From the NCBI GenBank assembly GCA_016223145.1, contig JACRPN010000005.1:277864-341863 (forward strand): a stretch of DNA of 64,000 nucleotides, read 5' to 3'. This document shows positions 6,641-34,124 of the stretch, piece after piece. Below the pieces are notes generated by a model, which was not told where the DNA came from, did no database searches, and saw nothing but the letters and a program-made list of their open reading frames with translations. The translations under genes were made by a program, and so were the position numbers. How positions within the stretch are numbered: the first letter of the stretch is position 1; each line of letters begins with the position of its first letter. This DNA is from Armatimonadota bacterium. Its GTDB lineage: Bacteria > Armatimonadota > Fimbriimonadia > Fimbriimonadales > Fimbriimonadaceae.

Positions 6641-6835
6641 GCGATAAAGGGATAAGGAGATGATGGGACAAAGGGATAGGGAATGGTCGAACGCCCCTCC
6701 TCTTGTGGCGACGAAGGGGCGATCGGAGGAGGGGGAGTCTCACGACGGCGCCTCGTCCCACCGTCCCTCTGTCCCTTTGTTCCTCCGTCCCTCCGCCTCC
6801 TCATCCCGTCCTTCTGTCCCTCAAGAACTTCACGT
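6641..6835. repeat. Opposed octamer-word arrays forming a nested inverted repeat
   Basis: From 6641 to about 6683 the sequence runs in 8-bp words of the form GATAAAGG, GATAAGGA, GATGATGG, GACAAAGG. From about 6753 to 6830 it runs in 8-bp words of the form GTCCCTCT, GTCCCTTT, GTTCCTCC, GTCCCTCC, which are reverse complements of the first set. Between them lie further opposed segments (CGCCCCT...AGGGGCG). The whole block can fold as a long imperfect hairpin. The right end runs into the 3' end of the prepilin-like gene. Confidence 0.75.
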
Positions 6836-7571
6836 GCCAATCCAGAAACAAACGATTGCGCCCGCCGAAGTGCATTGATTTGCCCTTCCATGCCGGCGGC
6901 ACGGTAGGGATTGTGCCCGGGAAGTAAGGATCGACGGCCATCTCGATCTCGGCGACACCCTGGGGGTTGCCGACCTGTGCGTTCTGGGCAGCCTGCAGGT
7001 CGCTGAGCGCCTGGTCCACCGATTTGCCCCAGAGGTTATCCAGGGGCACCGGATCGTCGGGCCGGTCGAACCGCCATAGCCAGTAGTTGGCGGCGGGAGC
7101 ATTGGCGGCGGCTGACACGGCTTGCCGAACCTGAACCGCCGTACCGAGCCCCGCCTCCGCGATCGCCGGGCATTGGAATATGCCGAGACTCCGCACGTAG
7201 GGCTCCAGCACCACTGCGGTCCAACCCGCCCTGGGGTCGGAAGGAGGCCAAGTGGTCCAAGGCCGATAGCCGCCGGGAAGGGAGAGCTTCAGGTCCCGCC
7301 GATCTGGCAGGCGATCGTCGTAGTCAGCGAGATAGAGCTCGAACGCCGTGCCCACTTGCTTGAGGTTGCTGAGACAGGCTGCCTTTTTCGCGGCGGCCTT
7401 TGCCTGGGAGAAGACCGGGACCAGGATCGCGGCGAGGATGGCGATGATCGCGATCACGACGAGGAGCTCGATCAGCGTGGAACCACGTCTCGATAGGGAA
7501 ACACCTGCTCGCTCTCCATGTACGGCCGCCACCCCGACATTATGGTCGCGCGCAGGTCCTGAGGCAGCCAT
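6801..7571 (-). CDS. Prepilin-like protein with N-terminal methylation motif
   Basis: Up to 256 aa. The type IV prepilin signature [24 protein letters not shown] (cut between G and S, Glu at +5) leads into an N-terminal helix and [21 protein letters not shown]. The C-terminus carries [16 protein letters not shown], the H-x9-DG-like end of DUF1559-type proteins. It is likely processed by prepilin peptidase and sits in the envelope as a pseudopilin. The ATG at 7571 gives a long leader (about 29 aa) without a good RBS, so the start is uncertain. The last codons overlap an octamer-word array. Confidence 0.85.
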
Positions 7572-7661: not shown

Positions 7662-8879
7662 TCAGGGAGCCGTCGCCGGAGGTTCCGCCGCCTGTCGGAC
7701 GGCCTCCGCCGACGGCGCAGAGCCCTTGAGCGCCGCCGCCTTGTGTCCGTGCGCGCCGGGGGGTGGAGTCTCAAGAATCCCCTTGAGCGTCATGATGCCG
7801 ATGAGCAAGACCACGGCGCACCCCGTGACGATCACCCATTGCCTGCGTGCCGGGTGGCGGGATGGCGAGCGGTCGAGCCAGGGCAGGAAGAGCATTCCCA
7901 TGCTCACCAGGCCGGGAACGATCATCGTCGCCACGACCTCCCAGCCTGCCGGCATGATCTTGAGAAGCTCATAGAGCCCAAGGAAGTACCACTCGGGCCT
8001 CGGCGCGAAGTCCGTGCCGCTCGGGTCCGCGATGGCCTCTAGCGCCGGCGGGAAAGCAAGGGCCAGATAGACCACCAACCCCATGCCGCCAAGGACAACC
8101 ACCGCGTCCTTGAAGAGCTGGACAGGATAAAACGGAACCGGCTTACCTTTCTGCGGGAGCACGGGCCCAGCGATATGGTGCTTGCGCACGAGGAAGAGGT
8201 GCAGCGCCATGAAGCCCATCAGTGCCGCCGGAAGCAGCATCACGTGGAGCGCAAAGAACCGAGTAAGCGTGAGCGCCCCGACCTCTTCTCCACCGCGAAT
8301 GAGAACCAGCAGGTCGTGGCCGACGACCGGGATGGTTGCTGCGATGCGCGTTCCAACGACCGTCGCCCAGTACGCCTTCTGGTCCCACGGCAGCAGATAG
8401 CCCGTGAACGAAAAGCCCAGGATGACGTTGAAGATCACCACGCCGACCAGCCAGGTGAGCTCGCGCGGCTTCTTGTAGGAGCCCCAGAAGAACACGCGCA
8501 GGATGTGCAGCACAGTGAAGATCACGATAATGGTCGAACCCCAAACGTGAAGTCCGCGCACGAACGACCCAAGGGCTACTTCCTCCGTGATGTGCTTGAC
8601 GCTCGCATAGGCATCGTGCGCGCTCGGCGTGTAGAACATCGCCAGCGCAAAACCCGTGATGAACTGGAACATCAGCAAGGTCATCAGGAGGTTGCCCAGC
8701 GTCTGCCACCAGCCGACGCCTGGGGGCATCGGCTCGTCGAGATTCTTTCGCACGAAGCCCCACCAACCAAGCCTGAGCTCAAGCCAGTCGCTCAGCTTGG
8801 GGCGATCGACGAGCAGTTCCTCTTCGGGCTTGAGCGGAGTCTTCTCGACTGGACGTTCGGGGGTTAGAATTTCAGCCAT
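7662..8879 (-). CDS. Cytochrome b subunit of a quinol:cytochrome c reductase
   Basis: 405 aa from the ATG at 8879, 2 nt after the Rieske stop. The frame is open further upstream but that part is out-of-frame Rieske sequence. Helix B has H-x13-H (HVWGSTIIVIFTVLH) and helix D has H-x14-H (HVMLLPAALMGFMALH), the b6-like spacing. The quinol-site motif PEWY is present (RPEWYFLGLYELLK). About eight membrane helices precede a low-complexity Ala/Pro tail. It would oxidise menaquinol or another quinol with the Rieske protein. It is the last gene of the nitrate-reductase-like operon. Haloarchaeal nar operons also carry Rieske and cytochrome b genes (narB, narC). Confidence 0.93.
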   Translation of the reverse strand: MAEILTPERPVEKTPLKPEEELLVDRPKLSDWLELRLGWWGFVRKNLDEPMPPGVGWWQTLGNLLMTLLMFQFITGFALAMFYTPSAHDAYASVKHITEEVALGSFVRGLHVWGSTIIVIFTVLHILRVFFWGSYKKPRELTWLVGVVIFNVILGFSFTGYLLPWDQKAYWATVVGTRIAATIPVVGHDLLVLIRGGEEVGALTLTRFFALHVMLLPAALMGFMALHLFLVRKHHIAGPVLPQKGKPVPFYPVQLFKDAVVVLGGMGLVVYLALAFPPALEAIADPSGTDFAPRPEWYFLGLYELLKIMPAGWEVVATMIVPGLVSMGMLFLPWLDRSPSRHPARRQWVIVTGCAVVLLIGIMTLKGILETPPPGAHGHKAAALKGSAPSAEAVRQAAEPPATAP

Positions 8880-8881
8880 GG

Positions 8882-9400
8882 TTACACGTTCTTTTGCACG
8901 AAGATCTGGCCGTTCTCGACCTTGACGGGATGCTGTTCGAGGGGTTTGGGAGGCGGTCCAGACACGACGCTGCCGTCCTTGCCGAACACGCCGCCGTGGC
9001 AAGGGCAGAAGTAGCGGTCCTTTTCGCCAACCCAGTTGATCCTGCAGCCAAGGTGGGTGCACGCGGGGTCGAAGGCGATGACCTCCTCTCCCGACCTGTG
9101 AAGGAACACGGTGTACTTGCGGTCGACCAGCGCGTAGCCGTCCTTGATCTGCATCGTGAAGGAGGCCTCGCGGGTCTGCCCGTCTTGAATCTCCGAAAGG
9201 CCCAGCACGGGCACCCACATGCCTTTGGTCTTTCTTCCCAGAGGCGATCCCAGGAAGCCCAGGACCGGCCCGAGGACGACGCCTCCGACGATCAGGTTGA
9301 TGCCGGCCACCAGCCAGCCCAACAGCTTGCGCCGGGGCGGGCCTGGCTGATCGTTGATCGAATCGATCAGGGAGTTGGATACAGGTTGTTCGTTGCTCAT
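8882..9400 (-). CDS. Rieske 2Fe-2S protein
   Basis: 172 aa from ATG at 9400 (MSNEQPVSNSLID). One N-terminal membrane anchor (LLGWLVAGINLIVGGVVLG) is followed by the Rieske fold with both cluster-binding boxes, CTHLGC and CPCHGG. It passes electrons from quinol to a c-type cytochrome. It lies 28 nt downstream of the Fe-S/cytochrome fusion gene and 2 nt before cytochrome b. There is no separate cytochrome c1 gene; the cytochrome c module inside the fusion protein is the obvious candidate acceptor (inference). Confidence 0.95.
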   Translation of the reverse strand: MSNEQPVSNSLIDSINDQPGPPRRKLLGWLVAGINLIVGGVVLGPVLGFLGSPLGRKTKGMWVPVLGLSEIQDGQTREASFTMQIKDGYALVDRKYTVFLHRSGEEVIAFDPACTHLGCRINWVGEKDRYFCPCHGGVFGKDGSVVSGPPPKPLEQHPVKVENGQIFVQKNV

Positions 9401-9428
9401 GGTCTTGTCTTGGGTGTGATGGGCGTGC

Positions 9429-11336
9429 TCAGGGGTAATAGCGAAGCTTGACGGGGCCGTCAAAGCCCGGTTCCAGCTCCCTCATCAACTGCTCCGCGAT
9501 GCGCTGCGATTTGTGGTGGCGTCCCGGCGAGGGCTCGCGACGGAAGCCGATCTCCACGCCCGATTCGACGATGGCGTCGGCCAGCTTGGTGAGGGCCACC
9601 ATGGTCGGCACGATCCAAACGTGGGCGAAACGGGTGAACGGCGCGGTGGCGAGGAGCACGAGCACGATCGCCAGGTGATAGAGGTAGATCGGCATGACCC
9701 ATCCGGTCAGGCCGGCACGTTTCATCACAAGCGTCAGAAATCCTGCGACCAGCGCGTGGAAGAGCAGCGTGACGAACAGAAAGTCCCTGCCCTGAGTCAT
9801 GCCGTTGTCGATGTACTGGTCCTTGCGGTAGCGGACCATCACGTACATCACGCCGGTCATCGCCGCCGCACCACCCAGCACCGGGAGAAGCTTCAGGGGA
9901 TCGGTGAACGGCAGTTCAGAGCGCAGAGGGTTGAAGATCTGCATCAGCACGTCTCCGAGCATCAAGGCGCAGAAGCCATAGAGGATCAGGCCGTGCATGA
10001 ACCACCGAAACTTGTCCTTTCGGTAGAGCGAGGCGACGCAGAACCCGTCCACGATCAGCGACTGGAGCAGGACCCCGAAACTCTTGCCGAGTCCGAACTT
10101 CTTCATCGCGGGCCAGAGCTGCTTGGGCGCCGAGAGCCTGATCCAGTAGATCCAGATCTTCACGCCGAAGATCAGCGCAAACAGCGTAACGAGCGAGAAG
10201 ATGATCCCGACGTTCCTGGTGCTGAGCAAACTTCCGACCTTGTACGCGATCGGGATCTGCGTCTCATCCCAGGGCTTGGCCTTGACCTCTTCAAAGATCT
10301 CGCGAAGCTGTTGGGCGGAGAGATCGGCCTCCTTGGTGGCGGGCATCATGCCCTTACCCTTTCGCACGACTTCTTCGAACTTCTCCAGCGTGACCTTGGT
10401 CTGGGCGATCGGCGGGCCTAAGCCGCCCATCGCGCTCATTCCGTGGCAGCCCATGCAGTTCGAGGTCGCGAAATGATCGGTCGTGGGACGGGTTTTCAGG
10501 TTCTCAGGTACAGGGCTCTCAGAGGTCCCCTGACCCCGACCAAGGGCCGCCATCCCGAAAAGCATCAGCAGTGCAAGCAGAGTTGCCAGCCAATGGACTC
10601 CCATGCTTCCCGACTTCGCTTTCGGCGTGGTGGGCTTTCCTGCCGGGGAATCCAGCGGCTCGGCTCGCTCGACGCCGGCACGTTGCCCAAATGTCGAACT
10701 TGCCTGTTTCGCCATCGTGCCCAAATACCGACCTGCCGGATTGGTACCGGCTTCGGGCAGGAGCTGGAACGGTGACCTTTTTGTTTCAACCACCTGCTCC
10801 TCGATGTAGGTTGAGATTTCGCTCTCGGGATTGTCCATGTCGCCGAAGATACGCGCCTTGGTGGGGCACGCCACGACGCAAGCCGGATCGAGGCCGACGT
10901 CCACGCGCTGCACGCAATAGGTGCATTTGCGCGCAACGTTCTGGTTGAGTCGTGGCTTGACGAAGTCGCGCTCGTAGGCTTCGTCTTCGTTCAAATACCA
11001 GGCGTCCTCCGCCTTCAGCACGATGTTTCCGTAGGGGCACGCCGAGACGCAGGCGCCGGTGCCGCGGCAGCGGTCCTGGTCGATGAGCACCACACCGTCA
11101 GGGCGCATGAAGATCGCCTTGTTGGGACAAGCTTTCAAGCAAGCAGGATTCTCGCAGTGGTAGCAGAGCATTGGCAGATACACGCGCTTGGCGTCGGGAT
11201 ACTTGCCAGCCTCGATGTTGAGCACCCTTGCGAAGAACACGTCCATCGGGGTGCCGTTTTCCTGCTTGCAGGCCACCGTGCAGGCATCGCAACCAATGCA
11301 GCGCGTGAGGTCGATGAGCATCGCGAGCCTTGCCAT
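9429..11336 (-). CDS. Fusion: NarH-like Fe-S protein, cytochrome c and NarI-like cytochrome b
   Basis: 635 aa in one frame. Residues 1-170 are a four-cluster ferredoxin domain. Cys ligands are C13/16/19/23, C58/61/66/70, C90/96/100 and C138/141/153/157. Position 93 is Thr where a Cys would complete a 4Fe cluster, as in NarH where Trp leaves a 3Fe-4S. Residues 247-265 form a membrane segment that looks like a signal anchor. A c-type haem motif CMGCH follows at 294-298 with a candidate Met ligand in GKGMMPATK. The rest is a polytopic NarI/DsrM-like cytochrome b with His in FMHGLILYGF, LLFHALVAG, YLYHLAIV and RFAHVWIV. Topology predicts Fe-S clusters inside and haem c outside. Its ATG overlaps the NarG-like stop by 1 nt. 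Confidence 0.93.
   Translation of the reverse strand: MARLAMLIDLTRCIGCDACTVACKQENGTPMDVFFARVLNIEAGKYPDAKRVYLPMLCYHCENPACLKACPNKAIFMRPDGVVLIDQDRCRGTGACVSACPYGNIVLKAEDAWYLNEDEAYERDFVKPRLNQNVARKCTYCVQRVDVGLDPACVVACPTKARIFGDMDNPESEISTYIEEQVVETKRSPFQLLPEAGTNPAGRYLGTMAKQASSTFGQRAGVERAEPLDSPAGKPTTPKAKSGSMGVHWLATLLALLMLFGMAALGRGQGTSESPVPENLKTRPTTDHFATSNCMGCHGMSAMGGLGPPIAQTKVTLEKFEEVVRKGKGMMPATKEADLSAQQLREIFEEVKAKPWDETQIPIAYKVGSLLSTRNVGIIFSLVTLFALIFGVKIWIYWIRLSAPKQLWPAMKKFGLGKSFGVLLQSLIVDGFCVASLYRKDKFRWFMHGLILYGFCALMLGDVLMQIFNPLRSELPFTDPLKLLPVLGGAAAMTGVMYVMVRYRKDQYIDNGMTQGRDFLFVTLLFHALVAGFLTLVMKRAGLTGWVMPIYLYHLAIVLVLLATAPFTRFAHVWIVPTMVALTKLADAIVESGVEIGFRREPSPGRHHKSQRIAEQLMRELEPGFDGPVKLRYYP
10493..10508. 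repeat. Two octamer words inside the fusion gene linker
   Basis: TTTTCAGG followed by TTCTCAGG, the same words as in the arrays at 11371 and 28217 (opposite strand there). They encode the PENLKT part of the linker between the membrane anchor and the haem c motif. Confidence 0.65.
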
Positions 11337-13984
11337 TAGCGGGTGCCTCCTGCTGGATTGGGTTGCGGAGAGTTCAGGTTGCCAGGTTCTCCGGTTTTCA
11401 GGTTTTCAGGTCGTCCTGCCTGAACACCTGAAGACCCGAATACCTGAACACCAGGCCTTCTGGTGCCTTCCGGCTTGCCGTTTTCAACCTTGCGAACGTC
11501 CACACGGGTGTCCTTCCAGTGCTGCCCGGGCGCATACACCGCGGGCAGGTAGTAATTCTCGTGAGTTGGTTTGACCTTTTGGTGCGTGTGCGGGCCGTGG
11601 TACTTGCCCTCGGAGAGGTACCGGTCCCACCAACCGTGGTCGGTGCAAAGCACTCCAGGCTTGATCGTCTCCGTTACCAGCGCCCAAAGCCGATAAGCGC
11701 CATTGTCGTTGAAGATCTCGACTTCATCGCCATCCTCGATCCCGCGCATGGCCGCGTCGACCGGGTGGATCTCTACCACCGGGCCTCTGTTCATGTTCAG
11801 CAACAACGGATTGTTGCTGTGGGTCGAGTGGACCCGCCATTTGCTGTGTGGGGTCACGATGCTCAGCGGCAATTTCTGGTCCGTCTCTGGAAGATGTGAG
11901 AACGCCGCCTTGAAGATCGGCACCGTCTCTCCCAGCTTGTGGAAGACCTCTTCTTCCTTGTAAAACTCCATCCGCCCAGTCTTCAGGAACTCGCGTTGTG
12001 CGCCCTCAGGGAAGGGATAAGCCCGGGGCGGGAAGAGTTTCAGATCGTGGAACTGCTCATCGCAGCCCACCTCGGGGTCGTGCACTTTCAACCGGACCGG
12101 GCCCGCCTTGAGCTGGTCGATGGTGATGTCCTCGACCTCTTTGCCACCACCCTTGAGCATGATGTCGATGGCTCCCCACTCGTCGAGGTCGAAGTGCTTG
12201 AGCAAGGTAGGGTCCACACGGCGGACCAGTTCGCGCACGATCCAGAACTCGGTTCGCGAGTTGTATTGCGGCTTGACCACCTCGTTTTGAATCTGAAGGT
12301 ACGGGTGGCAGGAAGTACCGACCAGTTCGGTCTTCTCCCAGAACGTCGGGCAAGGGAGCACGACGTCGGCATATTCACACGTCGGGCTCATCGAGAAGTC
12401 CAGGCACACGAAGAGGTCGAGGTTGTCGATCGACCTCTTGAGCGGCTCGGAGAACTCCGTGACCAAAGGGTTGCCGTGAGAAACGAACAGCGCCTTGACC
12501 CCATCCTTCGGATACTTGATCTTGGGATTGATGGTCTCGGTGGCCTTGCCCATCACGAAGTAGTGCATGGGCAGGGGCTTCGGCCGAACGCCGCCCGGGA
12601 ACCAGAACGGGCTCACGTCGAGGCGGAAGTGGTGCTGCCCAGAGTAGATGGAAACCGATTCGCCTGGCTTGCCGTGCGCGCCGGCGAGAGCGGAGAGCAA
12701 TAGGATCGCCCGGATCGTCAGGTCGCCGTGGAGCCGGTGGTTGAGCCCCATGCCGATGATGATCGAGCTTGGCCGGTTGGTCGCGTACTCGCGGGCAAGG
12801 TCTTTGATGGTCTGCGCTGGGATGTCGGTGAGCTTCTCGACGTTTTCCGGACGGTACTCGTCACCGGAGATGACGTCCTCGAGGAGTTGGAAGACGGGCG
12901 TAACGCGGACGCGCTTCGTCGGAAGGTCCGAGGTCCGAGGTCCGAGGTCCGAGGCGTCCGCTTGTCCCTCAGGCCCTCGGTCCCTGATCTCAACTTCCCG
13001 AGTTCCGCGGAAGCTCGGCCTAAGTTCCTTCGGGAGCGCCAGAGAGTCCATCGGCAGCTTGTAGAGGCCGTCCGCGCCCTCATCCCAGACGACGAACTCC
13101 GCGTCGGTTCCCATCCCCACGTCGGAGGCTCGGAGCCGCTGGCCGTTGTCCTCGCGCACAAGGGTCGCAGTGTCTGTAAAGGTCTTGAGGAAGTCCCAAT
13201 CCACCAGGTCTTCGTTGATGATCACCTGGCACATCGAGAGCGCGAGCGCGCCGTCCGTCCCAGGCGTGATGGGCACCCAGACATCCGCGCCCTTGGCCGT
13301 CTGGCTGCAACGCGGGTCGATGCAGTAGATCTTGCAGCCGTTGCGCTGCTTGGCATATTGGGTCAGGAATTTCGCGTCGGGAATGCGGGTCTGGAAGACG
13401 TTGCTCGACCAGAGGATCGCCGTCTTGGCGTAGCCCCAGCTCTTGGTCTCGCACTCCACGCAGTCGATGCCGACCGTGTGCGTGAAGCCCATGCTGATGT
13501 CGCCGTTGAAGTCGTACGCCGTGGCGAACGACATCCCGAGCAGCGCGGCCATGCGGACCTGCGCCCCCTTCTGCACGTAGCCCGTGCCCACCACCTGGTT
13601 GAAGAGCAGCATGTGGTCGGCGCCGTGGTCCTTGATGATCCGCTTCATGTGCCCGGCGATGTGGTCGAGCGCCTCGTCCCAAGTGGCCTCTTTCCATTGC
13701 CCGGCTCCGCGCTCCCCTTGGCGGATAAGGGGCGACTTGATGCGGTCCGGTCCATAGATCAGGTGCGTCATCGACATGCCGCGCAAGCAGCCGCGCGGGT
13801 TGTATTCCGCGCACGGATAGTCGGCGGCCGGCTTGAGATCAACGATCACATCATCGACCACGGTCGCTAGCCATCCGCACGCGCCGGTGCAATTGGGGCT
13901 GTCGGTGGTGCGCACAACCTTGGCCTCGCCTTTCGGCGGTTCGGTCTGTTGGAATCTTCCCGGGACTTTGTAGCGTGTTGCCAT
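11336..13984 (-). CDS. NarG-like molybdopterin oxidoreductase catalytic subunit
   Basis: 882 aa. Type II DMSO-reductase family: Fe-S segment with C32-x3-C36 and C66 (NCTGAC ... NPRGCLRG), Mo-ligand candidate Asp158 in AYDFNGD matching NarG Asp222, then LWSSNVFQTRIPDAKF and a C-terminal MGD-binding domain (TPHSKWRVHSTHSNN, HPVDAAMRGIEDGDEV). It is shorter than E. coli NarG (about 1250 aa) and closer to PcrA/DdhA size. There is no twin-arginine signal, so it should be cytoplasmic. Position 28, where NarG has the His ligand, is Asp. Residues about 333-354 and the last 40 are encoded by short-word repeats. Two NarK-type transporters and NnrS nearby make nitrate the likeliest substrate; chlorate, selenate or nitrite oxidation cannot be excluded. 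Confidence 0.9.
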   Translation of the reverse strand: MATRYKVPGRFQQTEPPKGEAKVVRTTDSPNCTGACGWLATVVDDVIVDLKPAADYPCAEYNPRGCLRGMSMTHLIYGPDRIKSPLIRQGERGAGQWKEATWDEALDHIAGHMKRIIKDHGADHMLLFNQVVGTGYVQKGAQVRMAALLGMSFATAYDFNGDISMGFTHTVGIDCVECETKSWGYAKTAILWSSNVFQTRIPDAKFLTQYAKQRNGCKIYCIDPRCSQTAKGADVWVPITPGTDGALALSMCQVIINEDLVDWDFLKTFTDTATLVREDNGQRLRASDVGMGTDAEFVVWDEGADGLYKLPMDSLALPKELRPSFRGTREVEIRDRGPEGQADASDLGPRTSDLPTKRVRVTPVFQLLEDVISGDEYRPENVEKLTDIPAQTIKDLAREYATNRPSSIIIGMGLNHRLHGDLTIRAILLLSALAGAHGKPGESVSIYSGQHHFRLDVSPFWFPGGVRPKPLPMHYFVMGKATETINPKIKYPKDGVKALFVSHGNPLVTEFSEPLKRSIDNLDLFVCLDFSMSPTCEYADVVLPCPTFWEKTELVGTSCHPYLQIQNEVVKPQYNSRTEFWIVRELVRRVDPTLLKHFDLDEWGAIDIMLKGGGKEVEDITIDQLKAGPVRLKVHDPEVGCDEQFHDLKLFPPRAYPFPEGAQREFLKTGRMEFYKEEEVFHKLGETVPIFKAAFSHLPETDQKLPLSIVTPHSKWRVHSTHSNNPLLLNMNRGPVVEIHPVDAAMRGIEDGDEVEIFNDNGAYRLWALVTETIKPGVLCTDHGWWDRYLSEGKYHGPHTHQKVKPTHENYYLPAVYAPGQHWKDTRVDVRKVENGKPEGTRRPGVQVFGSSGVQAGRPENLKTGEPGNLNSPQPNPAGGTR
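11371..11458. repeat. Eleven in-phase octamer words inside the NarG-like C-terminus
   Basis: In strict 8-bp phase: AGTTCAGG, TTGCCAGG, TTCTCCGG, TTTTCAGG, TTTTCAGG, TCGTCCTG, CCTGAACA, CCTGAAGA, CCCGAATA, CCTGAACA, CCAGGCCT. The left five and right four are the same word family in opposite orientations around a spacer, so the array can fold back on itself. The reading frame passes through it. Confidence 0.85.
12924..12987. repeat. Word array inside the NarG-like coding region
   Basis: Four perfect 7-bp copies of AGGTCCG (12924-12951) are followed after a short spacer by three 8-bp words GTCCCTCA, GGCCCTCG, GTCCCTGA (12964-12987). The last set uses the same GTCCCTCx word seen at 6753-6830 and 33283-33310. 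It adds about 22 residues (RDRGPEGQAD..., SDLGPRTSDL) between conserved blocks. Confidence 0.8.
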
Positions 13985-14065
13985 CGGTCGAAATCCTTCC
14001 TGGCGCAGCGCCCGTTACTCGGGCGTCCGCTATCGAATACTTTGGGGTCGAGATTGATGCGCTGC

Positions 14066-14081
14066 TATGACAGCCGTCATA
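14066..14081. promoter_or_regulatory. Perfect operator-like inverted repeat, Crp/Fnr type, site 1
   Basis: TATGAC-AGCC-GTCATA, a perfect 6-bp-arm palindrome with N4 spacing. It lies 82 nt upstream of the NarG-like ATG, in the divergent promoter region. Length and spacing match an FNR-family site (TTGAT-N4-ATCAA), but the half-site is ATGAC. Confidence 0.8.
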
Positions 14082-14135
14082 GAACGGGTGTCGAACAAAG
14101 AACCCGGCACGGTCGAACCAAGCGCTCTTGTGCGA

Positions 14136-14151
14136 TATGTCCGCCGTCATA
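14136..14151. promoter_or_regulatory. Operator-like inverted repeat, Crp/Fnr type, site 2
   Basis: TATGTC-CGCC-GTCATA, one mismatch from site 1, exactly 70 bp away. It lies 64 nt before the AlgE-like ATG at 14216, so each divergent unit has its own copy. Confidence 0.78.
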
Positions 14152-14215
14152 GTCGCGCCGGATCGCCAGCGTCAACATCGGTTTCAGGGGGTTCTGCGCC
14201 CCAAAGGAAAGACCG

Positions 14216-15376
14216 ATGCTCTTCATGTCTGATGCCCAAGCCGTCGACACCAAATTCACCCTTGAAATCAGGGAGCGCTATGAGCGCCGACTGAACAAAG
14301 ACTTCCTAACCTCTGCCGCGGACAACCGCTCCGACCTCTACTCGAGGTTCAGACCCACTCTTGAGACCAAATTCGGCAAGAACGGCACGTTCGTGCTGCA
14401 GTATCAGTTCTCGTACGACGCCGCAAGAACCCCCGCCAAGAAATTCTCAACAGAGAATCAAGACGTCAATCAGGCGTACCTGAAGATCGCCGTTCCCAAT
14501 GGCTCTTTCACCGCCGGCCGCCAGAAGATCAACATTGGCAGCGAGCGACTGATCGGCTCGCTCGAGTGGGTGAACGTGCCCCGTTCCTATGACGGGTTCC
14601 GGTTTCAGCAAGGAGCTTTCGATGCGTTCGCAATGAAGGTGGGCGTGGCCGTGCCAAAGCCGGAGAACGCCGAGATCGTTGGCCTTACCTACAAGTCCGA
14701 CCTAGGCCAGACGCTCGCCGTCTACAAGAACGACGAGAGCGCGACCGGCAAGACCCACATCTGGACCATTGACCACTCCAACAAGCTGACCTTCGGCAAC
14801 ACAGACTTCGATTACGACATTGCGGCACAGGGCGGCAAGGTCACAGGCAAGGACCACTCGGCCTGGGCGGCGCACGGCGCAGTCACGTTCCGCAAGTCGA
14901 AGACCCAACGCGCCTATGTGGAGCTCAACGCCGCGAGCGGCGGGCACAGCGCCACCAAGAGCGAGACATTCGACAACCTTTATCCCACCAACCACAAGTT
15001 CTACGGCAGCATGGATATGCAGGGCTGGAAGAACATGGTGGAGTTTGCCGCCGGATGGCAGCAATCACTGAACGCCAAGACCGATCTCCACCTTCACGCC
15101 CACCTCTTTCGGCTGATGGACGCAAAGGACGCCTGGTACGGCGCAGGCGGAGCCCCCAACAAGGGCCCGTCTGGGGTGTACAAAGACGCGACGGGCGCCA
15201 GCGGCAAGGAAGTCGGGACGGAACTTGATCTGGAGTTTGCCTACCGGCACGACGCCACGACGACGCTAAACTTCGGTATCGGCAGCTTCAACCCTGGCAA
15301 GTTCATCAAGGCGAAGAACGGCGGCTCCGCCGACAGCCAGACCTGGTTCTTCTTGATGCTTTCGAAGAAGATGTAG
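14216..15376 (+). CDS. AlgE-like outer-membrane beta-barrel (alginate export family)
   Basis: 386 aa, RBS AAAGGAAAG before ATG. The sequence is rich in alternating polar/hydrophobic strands and has the family blocks ERYERRLNKDF, YLKIAVPNGSFTAGRQ, SERLIGSLEWVNVPRSYDGFRF and ends in an aromatic-containing strand (TWFFLMLSKKM). Barrels of this family accompany nitrate/nitrite genes in several bacteria and may act as a porin for the anion (inference). Oddity: the N-terminus (MLFMSDAQA) is too short for a normal signal peptide, and no in-frame start exists before an upstream stop at 14150. Either the true start was lost or the signal is truncated. Confidence 0.75.
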   Translation: MLFMSDAQAVDTKFTLEIRERYERRLNKDFLTSAADNRSDLYSRFRPTLETKFGKNGTFVLQYQFSYDAARTPAKKFSTENQDVNQAYLKIAVPNGSFTAGRQKINIGSERLIGSLEWVNVPRSYDGFRFQQGAFDAFAMKVGVAVPKPENAEIVGLTYKSDLGQTLAVYKNDESATGKTHIWTIDHSNKLTFGNTDFDYDIAAQGGKVTGKDHSAWAAHGAVTFRKSKTQRAYVELNAASGGHSATKSETFDNLYPTNHKFYGSMDMQGWKNMVEFAAGWQQSLNAKTDLHLHAHLFRLMDAKDAWYGAGGAPNKGPSGVYKDATGASGKEVGTELDLEFAYRHDATTTLNFGIGSFNPGKFIKAKNGGSADSQTWFFLMLSKKM

Positions 15377-15491
15377 CCGAGCATTCTCAACTCCAGAAAC
15401 GCCGAGAGCGCCGGGACAATGTCCCAGCGCTCTCTCTTTATCGGGCAGCCTATCCTCTTCATGATAGGCCCTGCAACAGCGACATGCGCTG

Positions 15492-15507
15492 TATGACGTC
15501 CGTCATG
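15492..15507. promoter_or_regulatory. Operator-like inverted repeat, Crp/Fnr type, site 3
   Basis: TATGAC-GTCC-GTCATG, one outer-base mismatch. It is centred about 36 nt before the GTG at 15536, so with class II geometry (-41.5) the transcript would be nearly leaderless. Outside it lies a second inverted pair, CGACATG and CATGTCG. Confidence 0.75.
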
Positions 15508-15535
15508 TCGCCAGCTCCGGAGGACCGCCAGCATA

Positions 15536-17053
15536 GTGGGCATGAGCGCACGAGCGACCGCGAACCGCGTGCTCTTCATGAACACGCTCGCCTTCACCGT
15601 CTGTTTCGCCGTCTGGACCCTTTACGGCGTCCTCATCACCTTCATCGCTGACAACGGCCTCATCCCGCTCGACAAGGCCCAGATCGGGTGGCTGCTCGGC
15701 ATCCCCGTCCTGTCCGGCTCGCTGATCCGGCTGCCCGTCGGGATGCTCTGCGAACGGTTTGGCGGCAAGCCGGTCTACATCGGCGTGATGATCTTCTCGG
15801 CCATCTCCGTGTTCATGGTCAGCTACGCCAACAGCTTCGTCGGGCTCTTTTGGGGTGGCCTCGCCTTCGGCATTTCAGGCACGTCGTTTGCCGTCGGGAT
15901 CGCCTATTCCTCGATCTGGTTCCCCAAGAAGAGCCAAGGCACAGCGCTGGGCATCTTCGGCATGGGAAACGCCGGTTCTGGCGTCACCAGCCTGGGCGCT
16001 CCGCTCATTCTCAAGTCGCTCACGAACAACGGCGCAAACCCGGACAACTGGCGGCAGCTGCCTCAGATCTATGCCGCGGCGATGGCTGCGATGGTCGTGC
16101 TCTTCGCGCTATTCACCGTTCATCGCAAGGACGAAGCCGCGGCGCAGAAGTCTTGGGTGTCCATGCTCGAGCCGCTCAAAGACGTTCGTGTTTGGCGGTT
16201 TGGCCTTTACTATTTCCTGGTCTTCGGGGCGTTCGTCGCGCTCAGCCAATGGCTCATCCCGTACTACCTCAACGTCTATGGCATGAGCCTGGCGACCGCC
16301 GGTCTGATGGCCTCGGTTTTCAGCCTGCCCTCCGGCATCATCCGTTCGCTGGGCGGGTGGATTTCCGACCGCTTCGGCGCGCGAACCACGATGTATTGGG
16401 TGCTCAGCACCTGTGCCCTGTTCTTCTTTCTGTTGGTTGCTCCAAGGATGCGCGTGACGGCTCCCGGCGAAGGGATCCTTGCCGACCGGGCCGGCACCGT
16501 CGCCAGCGTCTCGAACGACCTGATCGTCGTCGAAGGAAAATCCGGGAAACAGGAATACAAGCTGACGCCCCAAACGATGGTTCACCTGGACGTCGATGAG
16601 GGCAACCTCGTGTTCCCGACCTTCACCAACTGGCATAAGCCCGCCGCGAAAGTCGGGGACAAGGTCAAAAAGCGCACCCTGCTCGCCAGCGGCGTGACGG
16701 AGGCCTACTTCCAGGCCAACGTTTGGATCTTCACGGCGTTCGTTTTCCTGGCGGGAATCATGATGGGCATTGGCAAGGCTGCCGTGTACCGGCACATTCC
16801 GGACTACTTCCCTCATGACGTCGGGGTTGTGGGCGGCATCGTGGGCGTCATCGGAGGTCTGGGCGGGTTCATCTGTCCGATCCTCTTTGGTTACATGCTG
16901 AAGTGGACCGGCCTCTGGACCACTTGCTGGATATTCTTGGGCCTGATCTCGGTCGTTTGCCTGGTCTGGATGCACCTTGTCATCCTCAAGATGACGCGGA
17001 ACATGAACCCGGCGGGCCCGCTCGACAGGCCTGAAGGTGAGCCGACATCCTGA
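15536..17053 (+). CDS. NarK-type nitrate/nitrite transporter with a soluble insert
   Basis: 505 aa from GTG at 15536 (GGAGGA ends 11 nt upstream); ATG at 15542 is the alternative. MFS fold with NNP-family features: GRLPVGM-like loop (LIRLPVGMLCERFGG), GISGTSFAVGIAYSSIWFPKK and FGMGNAGSGVTSLGAP, and a second-half signature VVGGIVGVIGGLGGF. Imports nitrate or exchanges nitrate for nitrite across the inner membrane. Residues about 303-395 are an extra hydrophilic domain (GTVASVSNDLIVVEG ... GDKVKKRTLLASG) between two membrane helices. It reads like a small beta-barrel/biotinyl-lipoyl-like domain and is absent from ordinary NarK. Confidence 0.9.
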   Translation: MGMSARATANRVLFMNTLAFTVCFAVWTLYGVLITFIADNGLIPLDKAQIGWLLGIPVLSGSLIRLPVGMLCERFGGKPVYIGVMIFSAISVFMVSYANSFVGLFWGGLAFGISGTSFAVGIAYSSIWFPKKSQGTALGIFGMGNAGSGVTSLGAPLILKSLTNNGANPDNWRQLPQIYAAAMAAMVVLFALFTVHRKDEAAAQKSWVSMLEPLKDVRVWRFGLYYFLVFGAFVALSQWLIPYYLNVYGMSLATAGLMASVFSLPSGIIRSLGGWISDRFGARTTMYWVLSTCALFFFLLVAPRMRVTAPGEGILADRAGTVASVSNDLIVVEGKSGKQEYKLTPQTMVHLDVDEGNLVFPTFTNWHKPAAKVGDKVKKRTLLASGVTEAYFQANVWIFTAFVFLAGIMMGIGKAAVYRHIPDYFPHDVGVVGGIVGVIGGLGGFICPILFGYMLKWTGLWTTCWIFLGLISVVCLVWMHLVILKMTRNMNPAGPLDRPEGEPTS

Positions 17054-17139
17054 CCGCAGCAGGCTCCACGCACGACTCAAGCGGAGCGGTTTGCCAATTG
17101 GACCGCCCCGCTTGACTTCGGGCGACCAATCCTGCTCCG

Positions 17140-17155
17140 TATGACGGTTGTCATA
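17140..17155. promoter_or_regulatory. Perfect operator-like inverted repeat, Crp/Fnr type, site 4
   Basis: TATGAC-GGTT-GTCATA, both 6-bp arms identical to site 1 with an unrelated spacer. It is centred about 57 nt before the ATG at 17205 of the second transporter gene. Confidence 0.8.
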
Positions 17156-17204
17156 GCCCCATCTGGCCCACGGCTTGACAATGAACCTAAGAGGTCACGC
17201 ACTT

Positions 17205-18548
17205 ATGGCAACCGAACGACGCCCCTCCGCCACTTGGCTCCCATCCTGGAATCGCGACGACGACGCGTTTATGGAGGCGCAGGGCTTTCGCATTGCCTGG
17301 CGCACGATGTGGATCACGACGTTCTGTCTGATCCTGTCGTTCTCGACCTGGTTCATGGTCAGTGTGATGGCGGTTCGCCTTCAGGGCATCGGCTTCAAGC
17401 TGGATGCCGGCCAGCTCTTCTGGCTCACCGCAATGCCTGGGCTCGCAGGCGGCACGCTTCGCATCATCCACACCTTCCTCATTCCGATTGTGGGCACGCG
17501 CCACACCATCGCGTTCTCCACCATCCTGCTGCTCTTACCCTGCATCGGCTGGTCCATGGCCGTGCAGAACCCGAACACACCCTACAGCACCCTGCTAATG
17601 CTGGCGTTCCTGGCGGGCCTTGGCGGCGGCAACTTCTCCTCGTTCATGCCGAGCACCAGCCTCTTCTTCCCGAAGCGATTGCAGGGCACGGCACTCGGCA
17701 TCCAGGCGGGCGTGGGCAACTTCGGGGTCAGCGTGGCGCAGTTCCTCATTCCGTGGGTCATCGGGCTCTCGATGTTCGCAAGCGTCGTGGGCGCGCCCCA
17801 GAACTTCACCAAGGCGGGCAAGACCACCCAAATCTATCTGCAGACCGGCGCGCTTATCTGGGCGCCTTTCATCGTGGTCGCCGCACTCATCGCCTGGTTC
17901 GGCCTCAAGAGCGTCCCGACCGCCAAGGCATCGTTGGCCCAGCAGACCGACATCTTCAAGAACAAGCACACCTGGCTGATGACCTCGCTGTACATCATGA
18001 CCTTCGGCTCGTTCTCCGGCTTTTCGGCGGCGTTCCCGCTGATGATCAAAGAACTCTACGCCAAGTTTCCGGATGGGCCCGACCCCCTAAAGTACGCCTT
18101 CCTTGGCCCGCTGGTGGGTGCTGCGTCCCGTGTGCTTTTCGGGCCGATCAGCGACAAACTCGGCGGTGCGAGGGTCACCCAGGTGTCTGGCATCGGAATG
18201 CTGCTCTGCGCTCTTGCGGTAAGCAAATACGTTCACCCGACGAGCCTGGAGGAGTTCGGCCCCTTCCTGTGGCTGATGCTCGGCATCTTCTTCTTCTCCG
18301 GGGTCGGCAACGCCTCGACCTTTAAGCAGATGCCGATGATCTTTGAGGCGCGCCAAGCCGGCGGCGTGATTGGCTGGACGTCGGCAATCGCCGCCTACGG
18401 CCCGTTCATCTTCTCGGTGCTGATCGGGGCCTCGATCAAAGGGAGCTGGACCGCTTCGTTCTTCTATGGCGTGGCCGCCTTCTACCTGTTCAATCTGGCG
18501 ATCAACGCCTACTACTATGGACGCAAGGGCGCCGAAAAGCCCTGCTGA
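17205..18548 (+). CDS. NarK-type nitrate/nitrite transporter
   Basis: 447 aa from the ATG at 17205, chosen because AAGAGGT lies about 10 nt upstream; in-frame TTG 17175 and ATG 17181 lack an RBS. Twelve predicted helices. The nitrate signature AGLGGGNFSSFMPSTSLFFPK is followed by GIQAGVGNFGVSVAQF, and the second half has FFSGVGNASTFKQMP. It is a single-domain NNP porter without the insert found in its neighbour. The two transporters are not close duplicates, so a symporter/antiporter division of labour is plausible. nnrS starts 7 nt downstream. Confidence 0.93.
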   Translation: MATERRPSATWLPSWNRDDDAFMEAQGFRIAWRTMWITTFCLILSFSTWFMVSVMAVRLQGIGFKLDAGQLFWLTAMPGLAGGTLRIIHTFLIPIVGTRHTIAFSTILLLLPCIGWSMAVQNPNTPYSTLLMLAFLAGLGGGNFSSFMPSTSLFFPKRLQGTALGIQAGVGNFGVSVAQFLIPWVIGLSMFASVVGAPQNFTKAGKTTQIYLQTGALIWAPFIVVAALIAWFGLKSVPTAKASLAQQTDIFKNKHTWLMTSLYIMTFGSFSGFSAAFPLMIKELYAKFPDGPDPLKYAFLGPLVGAASRVLFGPISDKLGGARVTQVSGIGMLLCALAVSKYVHPTSLEEFGPFLWLMLGIFFFSGVGNASTFKQMPMIFEARQAGGVIGWTSAIAAYGPFIFSVLIGASIKGSWTASFFYGVAAFYLFNLAINAYYYGRKGAEKPC

Positions 18549-18555
18549 GCTGCCA

Positions 18556-19917
18556 ATGAGATCGCAGTCCCTTCAATCCCTGCGCGTCATGCCCAACCGC
18601 TCTGCCCTAGCGGAAGGGCTGGCGCGCGCCAGCGTCGAGATCTATCGGCCGTTTTTCCTGGCAGGGGTGATCTCCGTTCTGACAGCCGGATGCCTGCTTG
18701 GGGCGGTCGCGCTGCTGGGCATCGCCCTGAACGGAAGCTACACCGCCAGCGCGTGGACACCCTACGTCCTCGCCCACGCTAACTCGCAAGTTTATGGGTG
18801 GGTGGGCTTCTTCGTCATGGGTTTCGCGCTGCAGCAGCACGCCCCGACCGTGGCCAAGAATGCCCTCTTCGAGCGGCTTGCGGCCATCTCGCTCGTCCTG
18901 ATGGCGGTTGGGATCGGTGTCCGGTTCGCCGCTGAGCCCCTCAGCAATGCCGATCCAGGAATCTGGGTCCCCATTGGTGTGGCCTCCTGCATCCTGCAGA
19001 CAATCTCAGTGTTCCTCTTCATGGGCAATATCGCCGTCACCCGGCATCGAAGCGGCCCGATGACCTGGCAGACGGCGCTTGTGTTTGCCTCCATGTTCTG
19101 GCTAGTCGTCATCGCCCTCGCAGAGCCTTACTTCTTCGCAGAGACCCACGGAGGCAGCCCGCAGGAGCGGGTCCTGTTCATCGCCGAGTGGTTCCCGCCC
19201 TATCGAGAGGCTCAATTCCTAGGCTTCGTCACCATGATGATCTTTGGTGTGGCCTGCGTCAAGATGAGCTCTTGCTTTGGCGCTGAAGGCGCTAATCCAA
19301 GACAGGGCCTGCTGGGATTCGGTTTGTGGCAGGCCGGTCTGCTGGCCCGGATGGCGGGTTGGGTCCTGGCGTTTCGCCAAGACCTTCGGCCGGATAGCCT
19401 GCTGGTCTACCGATCAGGAGGGTTGCTGCTCGCCGCGGGCGCGGTCTTCCTGATCGCCTCGACCCAGATGTTTCGGCGTCTCCAGTTTGCGGCGCCTTCC
19501 CACAAGTTCGTGCGAGGGGCATTCACCTGGCTGCTGATCGGTGGGCTGCTTATGGCCGTTGAGCCGCTGCATCTCGCCCAGATCGGCCAGCCATTCTCGC
19601 ACGCCTATACCGGCGCGATCCGTCACGCGGTAACCGTCGGGTTTATCAGCCAGATGATCCTCGGTGTTGGAATGCACGTGGTGGCGCGCATGAACGACAT
19701 GCCGGCAGAACAGGAGCGCCAGCTCTGGGCGTCCTTTTGGCTGCTGAACATAGGGAACGCACTGCGCGTCGCGCTGGAGATCGGCACCGATTATTCCGGA
19801 AGCATGTTCCTGCCGATGGGCTTCACGGGCTTCATCGAACTCACCGGCCTCCTCCTTTGGGGAGGCTATGTCGCGAAAGTCATGCTTGATTCGAGGAGGC
19901 TCAGTCGTGCAAGCTGA
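18556..19917 (+). CDS. nnrS: NnrS-family haem-copper membrane protein
   Basis: 453 aa from ATG 18556; ATG 18589 is possible and neither has a strong RBS. Starts with the NnrS-type block YRPFFLAGVISVL, then LAHANSQVYGWVGFFVMGFAL, and is membrane-embedded throughout, with conserved-looking His in helices (EPLHLAQIGQPFSHAYTGAIRHA, LGVGMHVVARM). NnrS proteins protect cells from NO-derived stress and sit in NnrR/DNR-type regulons. It is in one transcript with the NarK gene and overlaps the start of the regulator gene, so it fits nitrite/NO defence during nitrate respiration. Confidence 0.88.
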   Translation: MRSQSLQSLRVMPNRSALAEGLARASVEIYRPFFLAGVISVLTAGCLLGAVALLGIALNGSYTASAWTPYVLAHANSQVYGWVGFFVMGFALQQHAPTVAKNALFERLAAISLVLMAVGIGVRFAAEPLSNADPGIWVPIGVASCILQTISVFLFMGNIAVTRHRSGPMTWQTALVFASMFWLVVIALAEPYFFAETHGGSPQERVLFIAEWFPPYREAQFLGFVTMMIFGVACVKMSSCFGAEGANPRQGLLGFGLWQAGLLARMAGWVLAFRQDLRPDSLLVYRSGGLLLAAGAVFLIASTQMFRRLQFAAPSHKFVRGAFTWLLIGGLLMAVEPLHLAQIGQPFSHAYTGAIRHAVTVGFISQMILGVGMHVVARMNDMPAEQERQLWASFWLLNIGNALRVALEIGTDYSGSMFLPMGFTGFIELTGLLLWGGYVAKVMLDSRRLSRAS

Positions 19918-20644
19918 ACACCTAATGGCCGATGGTAGATTGAGAGACGATCGCCCGAGCGTTCGGGTAGCGATTGAGTCCTGCACCATCCTGAACGCCC
20001 TGTCTCAAGTGGAGCGCGATTCGCTGGAGCAAGGCTGCTTCATGGCCTATGCCAACCGTGGCGAGTCGATCTGGCTCGCGGGGTCGCCTTCCGAATTCTC
20101 AGGAATCGTCGCTTCGGGCTTCGTCAAGCTCACGCGCACGACACCGCACGGGCAGGAGGTGGCAGTGGACCTCCTGGGTCCGGGCCAGGCGTTCGGCCTC
20201 TTGATCGCCATCGAGGGCCGGCCGTTTCCGCTCAACGCCGTTGCGGTCACGAGTTGCTGGTACCTGAAGATTCCCACGCGCGTGCTCATGCCGATCTATC
20301 ACGCCAGCTCTCCCTTTAAGGACCAAATCGTGCACACGATTGGCCCCCGGCTCAGGCAAGCCCACCAGATGATGTCCCGGCTTTCGAGCGGCACGGTTGA
20401 AGAGCGCATCGCGGCCGTCCTTTTGATCCTCGCCGACAACTACGGGCTTCACAAGGGCGACAAGGCTCGGCTGAAGGTCCCCTTAACCAGGCAGGAAGTT
20501 GGCGAGATGGCGGGCACGACGGTGGAGACGACGATCCGCGTGATGAGCAAGTGGCAAAAGGACGGGCTCGTAACGACCCAGCGCCAGATCATCACGATCT
20601 GCTCGGTGAGCCAACTCGAGCGGCTCCTGAGCGAACACGCTTAG
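19907..20644 (+). CDS. Crp/Fnr-family transcription regulator
   Basis: 245 aa from GTG at 19907, chosen because GAGGAGG lies 7 nt upstream. It overlaps the nnrS end by 11 nt. A cyclic-nucleotide-like sensor domain (GESIWLAGSPSEFSGIVASGFVKLTR ... GLLIAIEGRPFPLNAV) is followed by a winged HTH (LTRQEVGEMAGTTVETTIRVMSKWQ). The recognition helix keeps the Glu and Arg of FNR (VETxxR) but has Ile where FNR has Ser212. The FNR N-terminal Cys cluster is absent, so it is DNR/NnrR-like rather than an oxygen-sensing Fe-S protein. It is the natural candidate to bind the four TATGAC-N4-GTCATA sites. Confidence 0.9.
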   Translation: MQAEHLMADGRLRDDRPSVRVAIESCTILNALSQVERDSLEQGCFMAYANRGESIWLAGSPSEFSGIVASGFVKLTRTTPHGQEVAVDLLGPGQAFGLLIAIEGRPFPLNAVAVTSCWYLKIPTRVLMPIYHASSPFKDQIVHTIGPRLRQAHQMMSRLSSGTVEERIAAVLLILADNYGLHKGDKARLKVPLTRQEVGEMAGTTVETTIRVMSKWQKDGLVTTQRQIITICSVSQLERLLSEHA

Positions 20645-33437: not shown

Positions 33438-34124
33438 ATGACCAAAGACCAGGTGATGGCGGAGCTTGAGGCGCTCGGCAGCGAAAAGATCCGCGCGATC
33501 AACGCCAAAAACGGCGCAAACGACAACCAGTTTGGTGTGAAAGCCGGCGACCTTCGCGCCATCGCCAACAAGATCAAGACCAACCACGAGCTCGGCCTCG
33601 AGCTCTGGAGCACAGGCAACTGGGAAGCCCGCATGCTATCCACCCTGGTGGTGAAGCCCAAGCAGCTCTCGGCGGAGGACGTCGACCGCATGGTCCGCGA
33701 AGTCCACCCCTCCCAGACCGCCCTGATGTCGCACCTCGCCGATTGGCTCATGACCAACGTCATCCGGCAGCACCCGGACAAAGAAGCCCTGCGCCAGAAG
33801 TGGATGGCGGACGGCGACATGATGGCGCAGCGCGCCGGCTGGAGCCTGACCACCGAGCGCGTCCTCAAGGCCCCCGAAGGCCTCGACCTCACGGCCCTGC
33901 TCGACCGAATCGAACGAGAAATGGGGAGCGCGCCAAAACTGGCAGCCTGGACGATGAACTTCTGCCTGGGTGAAATCGGCATCAAGTACCCGGAACACCG
34001 CCAACGGGTCCTCGCCATCGGCGAGAAGATCGGCGCCTTCAAGGACTATCCGACCCCCAAGGGCTGCGTCTCGCCTTATGTTCCCTTCTGGGTCAATGAG
34101 ATGGTGAAGCGGCAAGGCGGGTAA
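33438..34124 (+). CDS. AlkD-like DNA alkylation repair protein
   Basis: 228 aa from ATG 33438; 23 upstream in-frame codons have a poor codon pattern and are excluded. Begins MTKDQVMAELEALGSEKI, then FGVKAGDLRAIANKIK, which is the usual start of the HEAT-like ALK fold, with WSTGNWEARMLSTLVV and WLMTNVIRQHP further on. AlkD-type glycosylases excise alkylated purines without base flipping. Function is by family similarity; catalytic residues were not verified. Confidence 0.82.
   Translation: MTKDQVMAELEALGSEKIRAINAKNGANDNQFGVKAGDLRAIANKIKTNHELGLELWSTGNWEARMLSTLVVKPKQLSAEDVDRMVREVHPSQTALMSHLADWLMTNVIRQHPDKEALRQKWMADGDMMAQRAGWSLTTERVLKAPEGLDLTALLDRIEREMGSAPKLAAWTMNFCLGEIGIKYPEHRQRVLAIGEKIGAFKDYPTPKGCVSPYVPFWVNEMVKRQGG

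Follow-up and report, generated by a model that had tools for sequence, protein, structure and literature searches.

The closest described systems are Crp/Fnr-family regulators with palindromic operators, published as CTTGATnnnnATCAAG for DNR, ctTTGcgnnnncgCAAag for NnrR and, for HcpR1, as wyTTGACnnnnGTCAArw or wTGTGAnnnnnnTCACAw (PMC1274295). Their choice of half-site is described by a two-residue code, whereby CRP positions 180 and 181 pair with half-site bases 3 and 6, and the FNR pair, Val180/Glu181, belongs with T in third and A in sixth place (PMC1274295); FNR Ser212 (CRP position 184) is, in addition, reported to be among the three FNR residues responsible for the major contacts with the FNR box (PMC4505428). 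The operator family discussed here matches none of the published FNR, DNR, NnrR and HcpR motifs, as the preliminary description of this DNA had held, nor that of NssR (PMC1274295). Armatimonadetes go unmentioned in the anammox Crp/Fnr meta-regulon paper (PMC8510549), and text searches of the literature for ATGAC, ATGAT or TATGA palindromes returned no paper, which is weak evidence of novelty given that logos and subscription papers are invisible to a text search.

The window, that is, the whole stretch of 64,000 nucleotides (64 kb) analysed, comes from an Armatimonadota bacterium of the family Fimbriimonadaceae and has the gene content originally assigned to it: a molybdoenzyme set on the minus strand and, on the plus strand, an outer-membrane barrel, two NarK transporters, NnrS and a Crp/Fnr regulator (Table 1). 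The protein that fuses a 4Fe-4S subunit to cytochrome c and a NarI-like membrane part looks, together with the Rieske protein and cytochrome b, like a molybdoenzyme-bc complex; in several relatives (loci L084, L088, L091) the fusion is two genes. Inserted between two stretches of NarK-1 that match MFS transporters are some 90 residues (~303-392), soluble and reading like a small barrel-sandwich (lipoyl-like) domain; relatives of NarK-1 are of similar length (~490-515 aa), and the insert may be conserved. Positions 6801-7571 encode a prepilin-like protein, recognisable by its N-terminal signature.

Table 1. Genes, operators and predicted -10 elements of the island (window coordinates).
Feature	Position	Strand	Basis or remark
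Cytochrome b (b6/petB type)	7662..9218	-	PF00033; open frame, true start further in
Rieske protein	8882..9463	-	PF00355
4Fe-4S subunit fused to cytochrome c and NarI-like membrane part	9429..11336	-	Domain searches
Molybdopterin oxidoreductase, DMSO-reductase type II/NarG-like	11336..13984	-	PF00384, PF01568; TIGR03479 459 bits, under cut-off
Predicted -10 CAAAGT, molybdoenzyme promoter	14039..14044	-	A at -11, T at -7 if site at -41.5; predicted start point near 14032
Operator, perfect, TATGACAGCCGTCATA	14066..14081	.	Predicted class II site, molybdoenzyme operon; kept before 23/25 molybdoenzyme orthologues
Operator, 1 mismatch, TATGTCCGCCGTCATA	14136..14151	.	Predicted class II site, barrel gene
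Predicted -10 CAACAT, barrel promoter	14173..14178	+	Offset from site; predicted start point near 14185
Outer-membrane barrel (alginate-export family)	14216..15376	+	PF13372
Operator, 1 mismatch, TATGACGTCCGTCATG	15492..15507	.	Predicted class II site, NarK-1
Predicted -10 CAGCAT, NarK-1 promoter	15529..15534	+	Predicted start point 15541, ATG 15542
NarK-1 nitrate/nitrite MFS transporter	15542..17053 (frame from 15536)	+	Domain searches
Operator, perfect, TATGACGGTTGTCATA	17140..17155	.	Predicted class II site, NarK-2/nnrS/regulator
Predicted -10 GACAAT, NarK-2 promoter	17177..17182	+	Predicted start point 17189, likely ATG 17205
NarK-2 nitrate/nitrite MFS transporter	17205..18548	+	TIGR00886 304 bits
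NnrS	18466..19917	+	PF05940; open frame from 18466, true start probably further in
Crp/Fnr-family regulator, presumed binder of the four operators	19907..20644	+	Recognition helix TVETTIR

A four-site family of TATGAC-N4-GTCATA operators is confirmed. Scanning of the window recovered the two perfect and two one-mismatch sites first noticed by eye, with constant 4-nt spacers of unrelated sequence, placed before the molybdoenzyme operon, the barrel, NarK-1 and the NarK-2/nnrS/regulator unit. The claim that the 64 kb hold no further site also stood, since tolerating up to two mismatches adds position 33749 alone (two mismatches); at this threshold dinucleotide shuffles of the window gave a mean of 0.33 matches and never the five of the real sequence. 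Both perfect copies present in the 3.87-Mb genome lie within the window, four one-mismatch sites lie outside it, and neither this genome nor those of the family showed many equal copies scattered in unrelated places.

The regulator, used alone as query against named genomes, gave no match. Alignment of the molybdoenzyme identified named relatives within Armatimonadota, for the most part Fimbriimonadales/Fimbriimonadaceae MAGs, and there the question of conservation received a clear answer: the sites are strongly conserved before orthologous genes. A sample of 85 family genomes (Armatimonadota, Fimbriimonadales, Fimbriimonadaceae) contains 87 perfect TATGAC-N4-GTCATA sites, distributed over 45 genomes, and a single copy of the reversed control pattern. 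The FNR-like T version (TTTGAC; 20 sites, its own control 10) and the CRP-like G version (TGTGAC; 12 and 9) are hardly enriched in the same genomes, so that the A version alone stands out. An unbiased scan of the 300 bp before 25 molybdoenzyme orthologues, which started from no prior motif and counted every inverted repeat whose 5-bp arms stand 0-12 apart, ranked TATGA-N6-TCATA first (16 of 25 promoters), with its shifted forms next and unrelated repeats in at most three; 23 of the 25 have a site when mismatches are allowed. The consensus deduced from the relatives is TATGAY-N4-RTCATA, arm position 6 being C in 78% and T in 20% of cases, and at least three genomes otherwise scored as having the regulator only (L076, L077, L080) carry TATGAT-N4-ATCATA sites that the strict pattern misses. 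As position 6 is thus C or T, what truly sets the motif apart from an FNR/DNR-type site is a single base, A for T; the original contrast of ATGAC with TTGAT holds for this base, but the inner C is not distinctive, given that HcpR1 sites have TTGAC. A true FNR box (TTGAT-N4-ATCAA) and a true CRP box (TGTGA-N6-TCACA) were both rejected on these grounds, consensus and unbiased scan alike having A, the first of the five bases in the FNR comparison, in place of T or G. Phylum-wide, the sites are concentrated in Fimbriimonadales, with pockets in a few other families. Two records deserve mention for their names: Acidobacteria bacterium SZAS-17 (L196) has a 69% identical molybdoenzyme in a genome without a perfect site, through transfer or misbinning, and Methanoregulaceae archaeon SJ84 (L180, G294), whose site positions agree with those of G065, resembles a Fimbriimonadales genome and probably has a mislabelled title.

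The first genes after the sites in the fetched loci belong to few families, namely molybdoenzyme catalytic subunits (a NasC-like one included), NarK, NnrS and the barrel, with barrel and NarK orthologues preceded by sites as in the window, and further NrfC-like iron-sulphur protein, MoaA, MoeA, MobA-like and NapC/NrfH-like proteins, NrfA (cytochrome c552), CcmF/ResB, multihaem cytochromes and the regulator itself; in other families of the phylum, Hcp also follows sites (L150, L163, L167). These families make up one nitrogen-oxide/molybdenum set, as befits a nitrogen-oxide regulon, and some perfect sites are singletons with no evident nitrogen-oxide target. The proposed check, whether matches precede denitrification genes, gave nitrogen-oxide genes, but the regulon is one of nitrate reduction/ammonification and molybdenum cofactor synthesis, not denitrification proper. 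The nrfA gene of the window's genome lies on another contig (C20:24812-26032), with a one-mismatch site upstream at C20:26308. Other near matches in this genome (contigs C4, C6, C8, C14) have no convincing nitrogen-oxide target. Another one-mismatch site (C9:12730; L203:1501-2071) stands about 50 bp before a gene for a regulator of the Rrf2 family, to which NsrR belongs, and has T-7 only; a link to NO stress is possible by analogy. In one genus, four genomes (L137:2311, L049:1501, L050:1501, L052:1501) have a perfect site without a -10 in the interval from mutS to a 130-aa gene, and three of the four are without a close regulator homologue.

New in this analysis is the presence, at class II distance from the putative operator, of a -10-like element. 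With sites picked by pattern and oriented to their target genes, an A/T-rich element shows up at positions 30-35, counted from the middle of the site, A31 and T35 being its strongest bases. A site centre at -41.5 would place this pair at -11 and -7, the bases that matter most in the sigma-70 -10 element. Among 125 promoters, taken as one for each genome and gene family, A-11 and T-7 occur together at the class II offset in 74 (59%; binomial p 3e-63, a value inflated by the kinship of the genomes), and at other offsets in a mean of 4.9% (sd 2.6%, maximum 14%). Promoters whose start codon is at least 55 bp away retain the -10 at this offset in 48% of cases, so the start codon does not by itself create the signal. 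Each of the four window sites has a -10 at the class II offset that faces its own gene, and 14066 and 14136, judged by the -10 that faces each gene, are predicted to serve one divergent gene apiece; the nrfA site of the same genome has no -10 at this offset. The predicted arrangement, an operator at -41.5 next to a -10, is that of a class II activator. Moreover, start-codon positions peak at 42-43 from the site centre, or +1/+2, which suggests that many target mRNAs are leaderless, probably that of NarK-1 in the window among them. Leaderless mRNAs are known in several further phyla, where a TAnnnT box precedes the start codon by about 12 bp (PMC3160421).

The linked regulator scores above the cut-offs for PF00027 and PF13545, the domains of the CRP/FNR superfamily, and its AlphaFold model (pLDDT 91.7) has the Crp/Fnr fold, with GlxR, CRP of Mycobacterium tuberculosis and NtcA as best structural matches. 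In its recognition helix E207, I210 and R211 are invariant among 26 aligned homologues (39-57% identity), and more distant homologues (~27-40% identity) that lie near sites in other parts of the order and phylum keep E-x-x-I-R, which agrees with the earlier reading that the FNR Glu and Arg are retained and the Ser changed, here to Ile. No FNR four-cysteine set is conserved among the 26 homologues, the protein scores 56 bits with the NCBIfam FNR model PRK11161 (cut-off 228), and the cAMP-contact residues of Escherichia coli CRP (E72, R82, S83) are not kept; aligned to GlxR, the cAMP-contact Glu is Leu and Arg-Thr-Ser is Phe-Pro-Leu. The two-residue code does not account for the operator, as Val180 and Glu181 are present, yet base 3 is A instead of T; from comparison between families, Ile at FNR position 212 would favour A over T. 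Among 113 genomes of the order, 47 have both regulator and perfect site, 13 the regulator only, four the site only and 49 neither (odds ratio 44, Fisher p 3e-15, with independence overstated because genomes are related). A second-copy homologue without the E-x-x-I-R pattern (L106:15077-15886) has a very different helix.

The operator, its conservation, the gene set behind it, its co-occurrence with the regulator and the -41.5/-10 geometry, established from sequence, are jointly best explained, with high probability, if these are operators of the linked Crp/Fnr protein acting as a class II activator, and we infer that this protein is the binder and that it activates. Its dimer would bind TATGAY-N4-RTCATA centred at -41.5, stand in for the -35 element and recruit RNA polymerase to a weak -10 (A-11, T-7), turning on nitrate/nitrite transport, the NarG-like molybdoenzyme complex, nnrS and its own operon, probably nrfA in the same genome and, in relatives, cofactor synthesis, NrfH-like proteins and Hcp. 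The signal would be a nitrogen oxide, and its sensing would involve neither cAMP nor an iron-sulphur cluster of the FNR type; that the signal is most likely NO is a guess with about an even chance of being right. Sites near start codons, some less than 30 bp away, are what one might expect of a repressor that blocks the promoters until a nitrogen oxide appears, but a site at -41.5 whose -10 lies at a constant distance, with nothing to suggest a separate -35, has class II activator geometry as for FNR/CRP, on which ground the unlikely repressor was rejected.

Who reads the palindrome can be asked more widely. There is some chance, which we rate as clearly short of even, that one operator is common to several paralogous Crp/Fnr regulators with different signals (e.g., oxygen and nitrogen oxides) in a joint anaerobic/nitrogen-oxide network: many relatives have two to four homologues, nearly all with E-x-x-I-R, the pairing of sites with same-helix paralogues is ambiguous in several of them, and distant paralogues also adjoin sites (L113, L114, L115). 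The window's genome, however, has a single homologue at E<=1e-20, and the other Crp/Fnr protein there that passes the family cut-off differs in the helix (TVREVVSR), so one regulator suffices in this genome; that other protein has Ser at the Ile position, hence Ile is not simply a genome-wide trait. It is very improbable that a different DNA-binding protein is responsible: four genomes that lack a close homologue of the linked protein do hold five sites, but in three of these genomes the site is the mutS/small-gene one without a -10, and strong co-occurrence, sites before the regulator gene and Crp/Fnr geometry (TGA-N6-TCA core) point to the linked protein. Chance palindromes or a repeat element, for which just the small motif size speaks, are next to inconceivable in view of the window and genome scans, family counts set against control, unbiased promoter scan, co-occurrence and -10 offset, and were rejected because sites with unrelated spacers and flanks are conserved before orthologous genes.

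A regulator, an operator and a regulon are thereby supplied for an order known mostly from uncultured genomes, the Crp/Fnr recognition code gains one letter with a candidate residue named, and the fixed -41.5/-10 geometry makes start points and regulon members predictable in any relative from sequence alone. We lean towards a separate branch of Crp/Fnr nitrogen-oxide activators in several Armatimonadota lineages that reads A at the base read as T by FNR and as G by CRP, via Ile (FNR 212/CRP 184) as a third specificity residue beyond the two-residue code, with many targets leaderless. FLP of Lactobacillus casei is a Crp/Fnr protein whose half-site has C or A before TGA, but its spacing and flanks differ from those of the present operator, and we know of no nitrogen-oxide regulon for it. 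CRP/GlxR share the fold, GlxR being the best structural match, and the TGA-N6-TCA core, and differ in that R180 is Val here, the cAMP-contact residues are replaced and A stands for the G of TGTGA. E. coli FNR has the equivalents Glu209 and Arg213, the TVET helix start and the class II -41.5 geometry in common with this system, whereas Ser212 is Ile, the four-cysteine set is absent and the half-site is ATGAY instead of TTGAT. NnrR of alpha-proteobacteria likewise controls nnrS, through a consensus that differs from this operator, and HcpR1 of delta-proteobacteria has sites before hcp, as in some relatives here, and the core TGAC-N4-GTCA, the difference being TATGAY. DNR of Pseudomonas and beta-proteobacteria resembles the regulator in having no FNR-type cysteine set, linked nitrogen-oxide genes including nnrS and a palindrome with a 4-nt spacer, but the operator here has A for the first T of TTGAT, and DNR targets nir/nor/nos whereas the targets here serve nitrate reduction/ammonification. 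The best reading is a branch of Crp/Fnr nitrogen-oxide class II activators with a new operator, one that would work like DNR and HcpR and is classed as neither.
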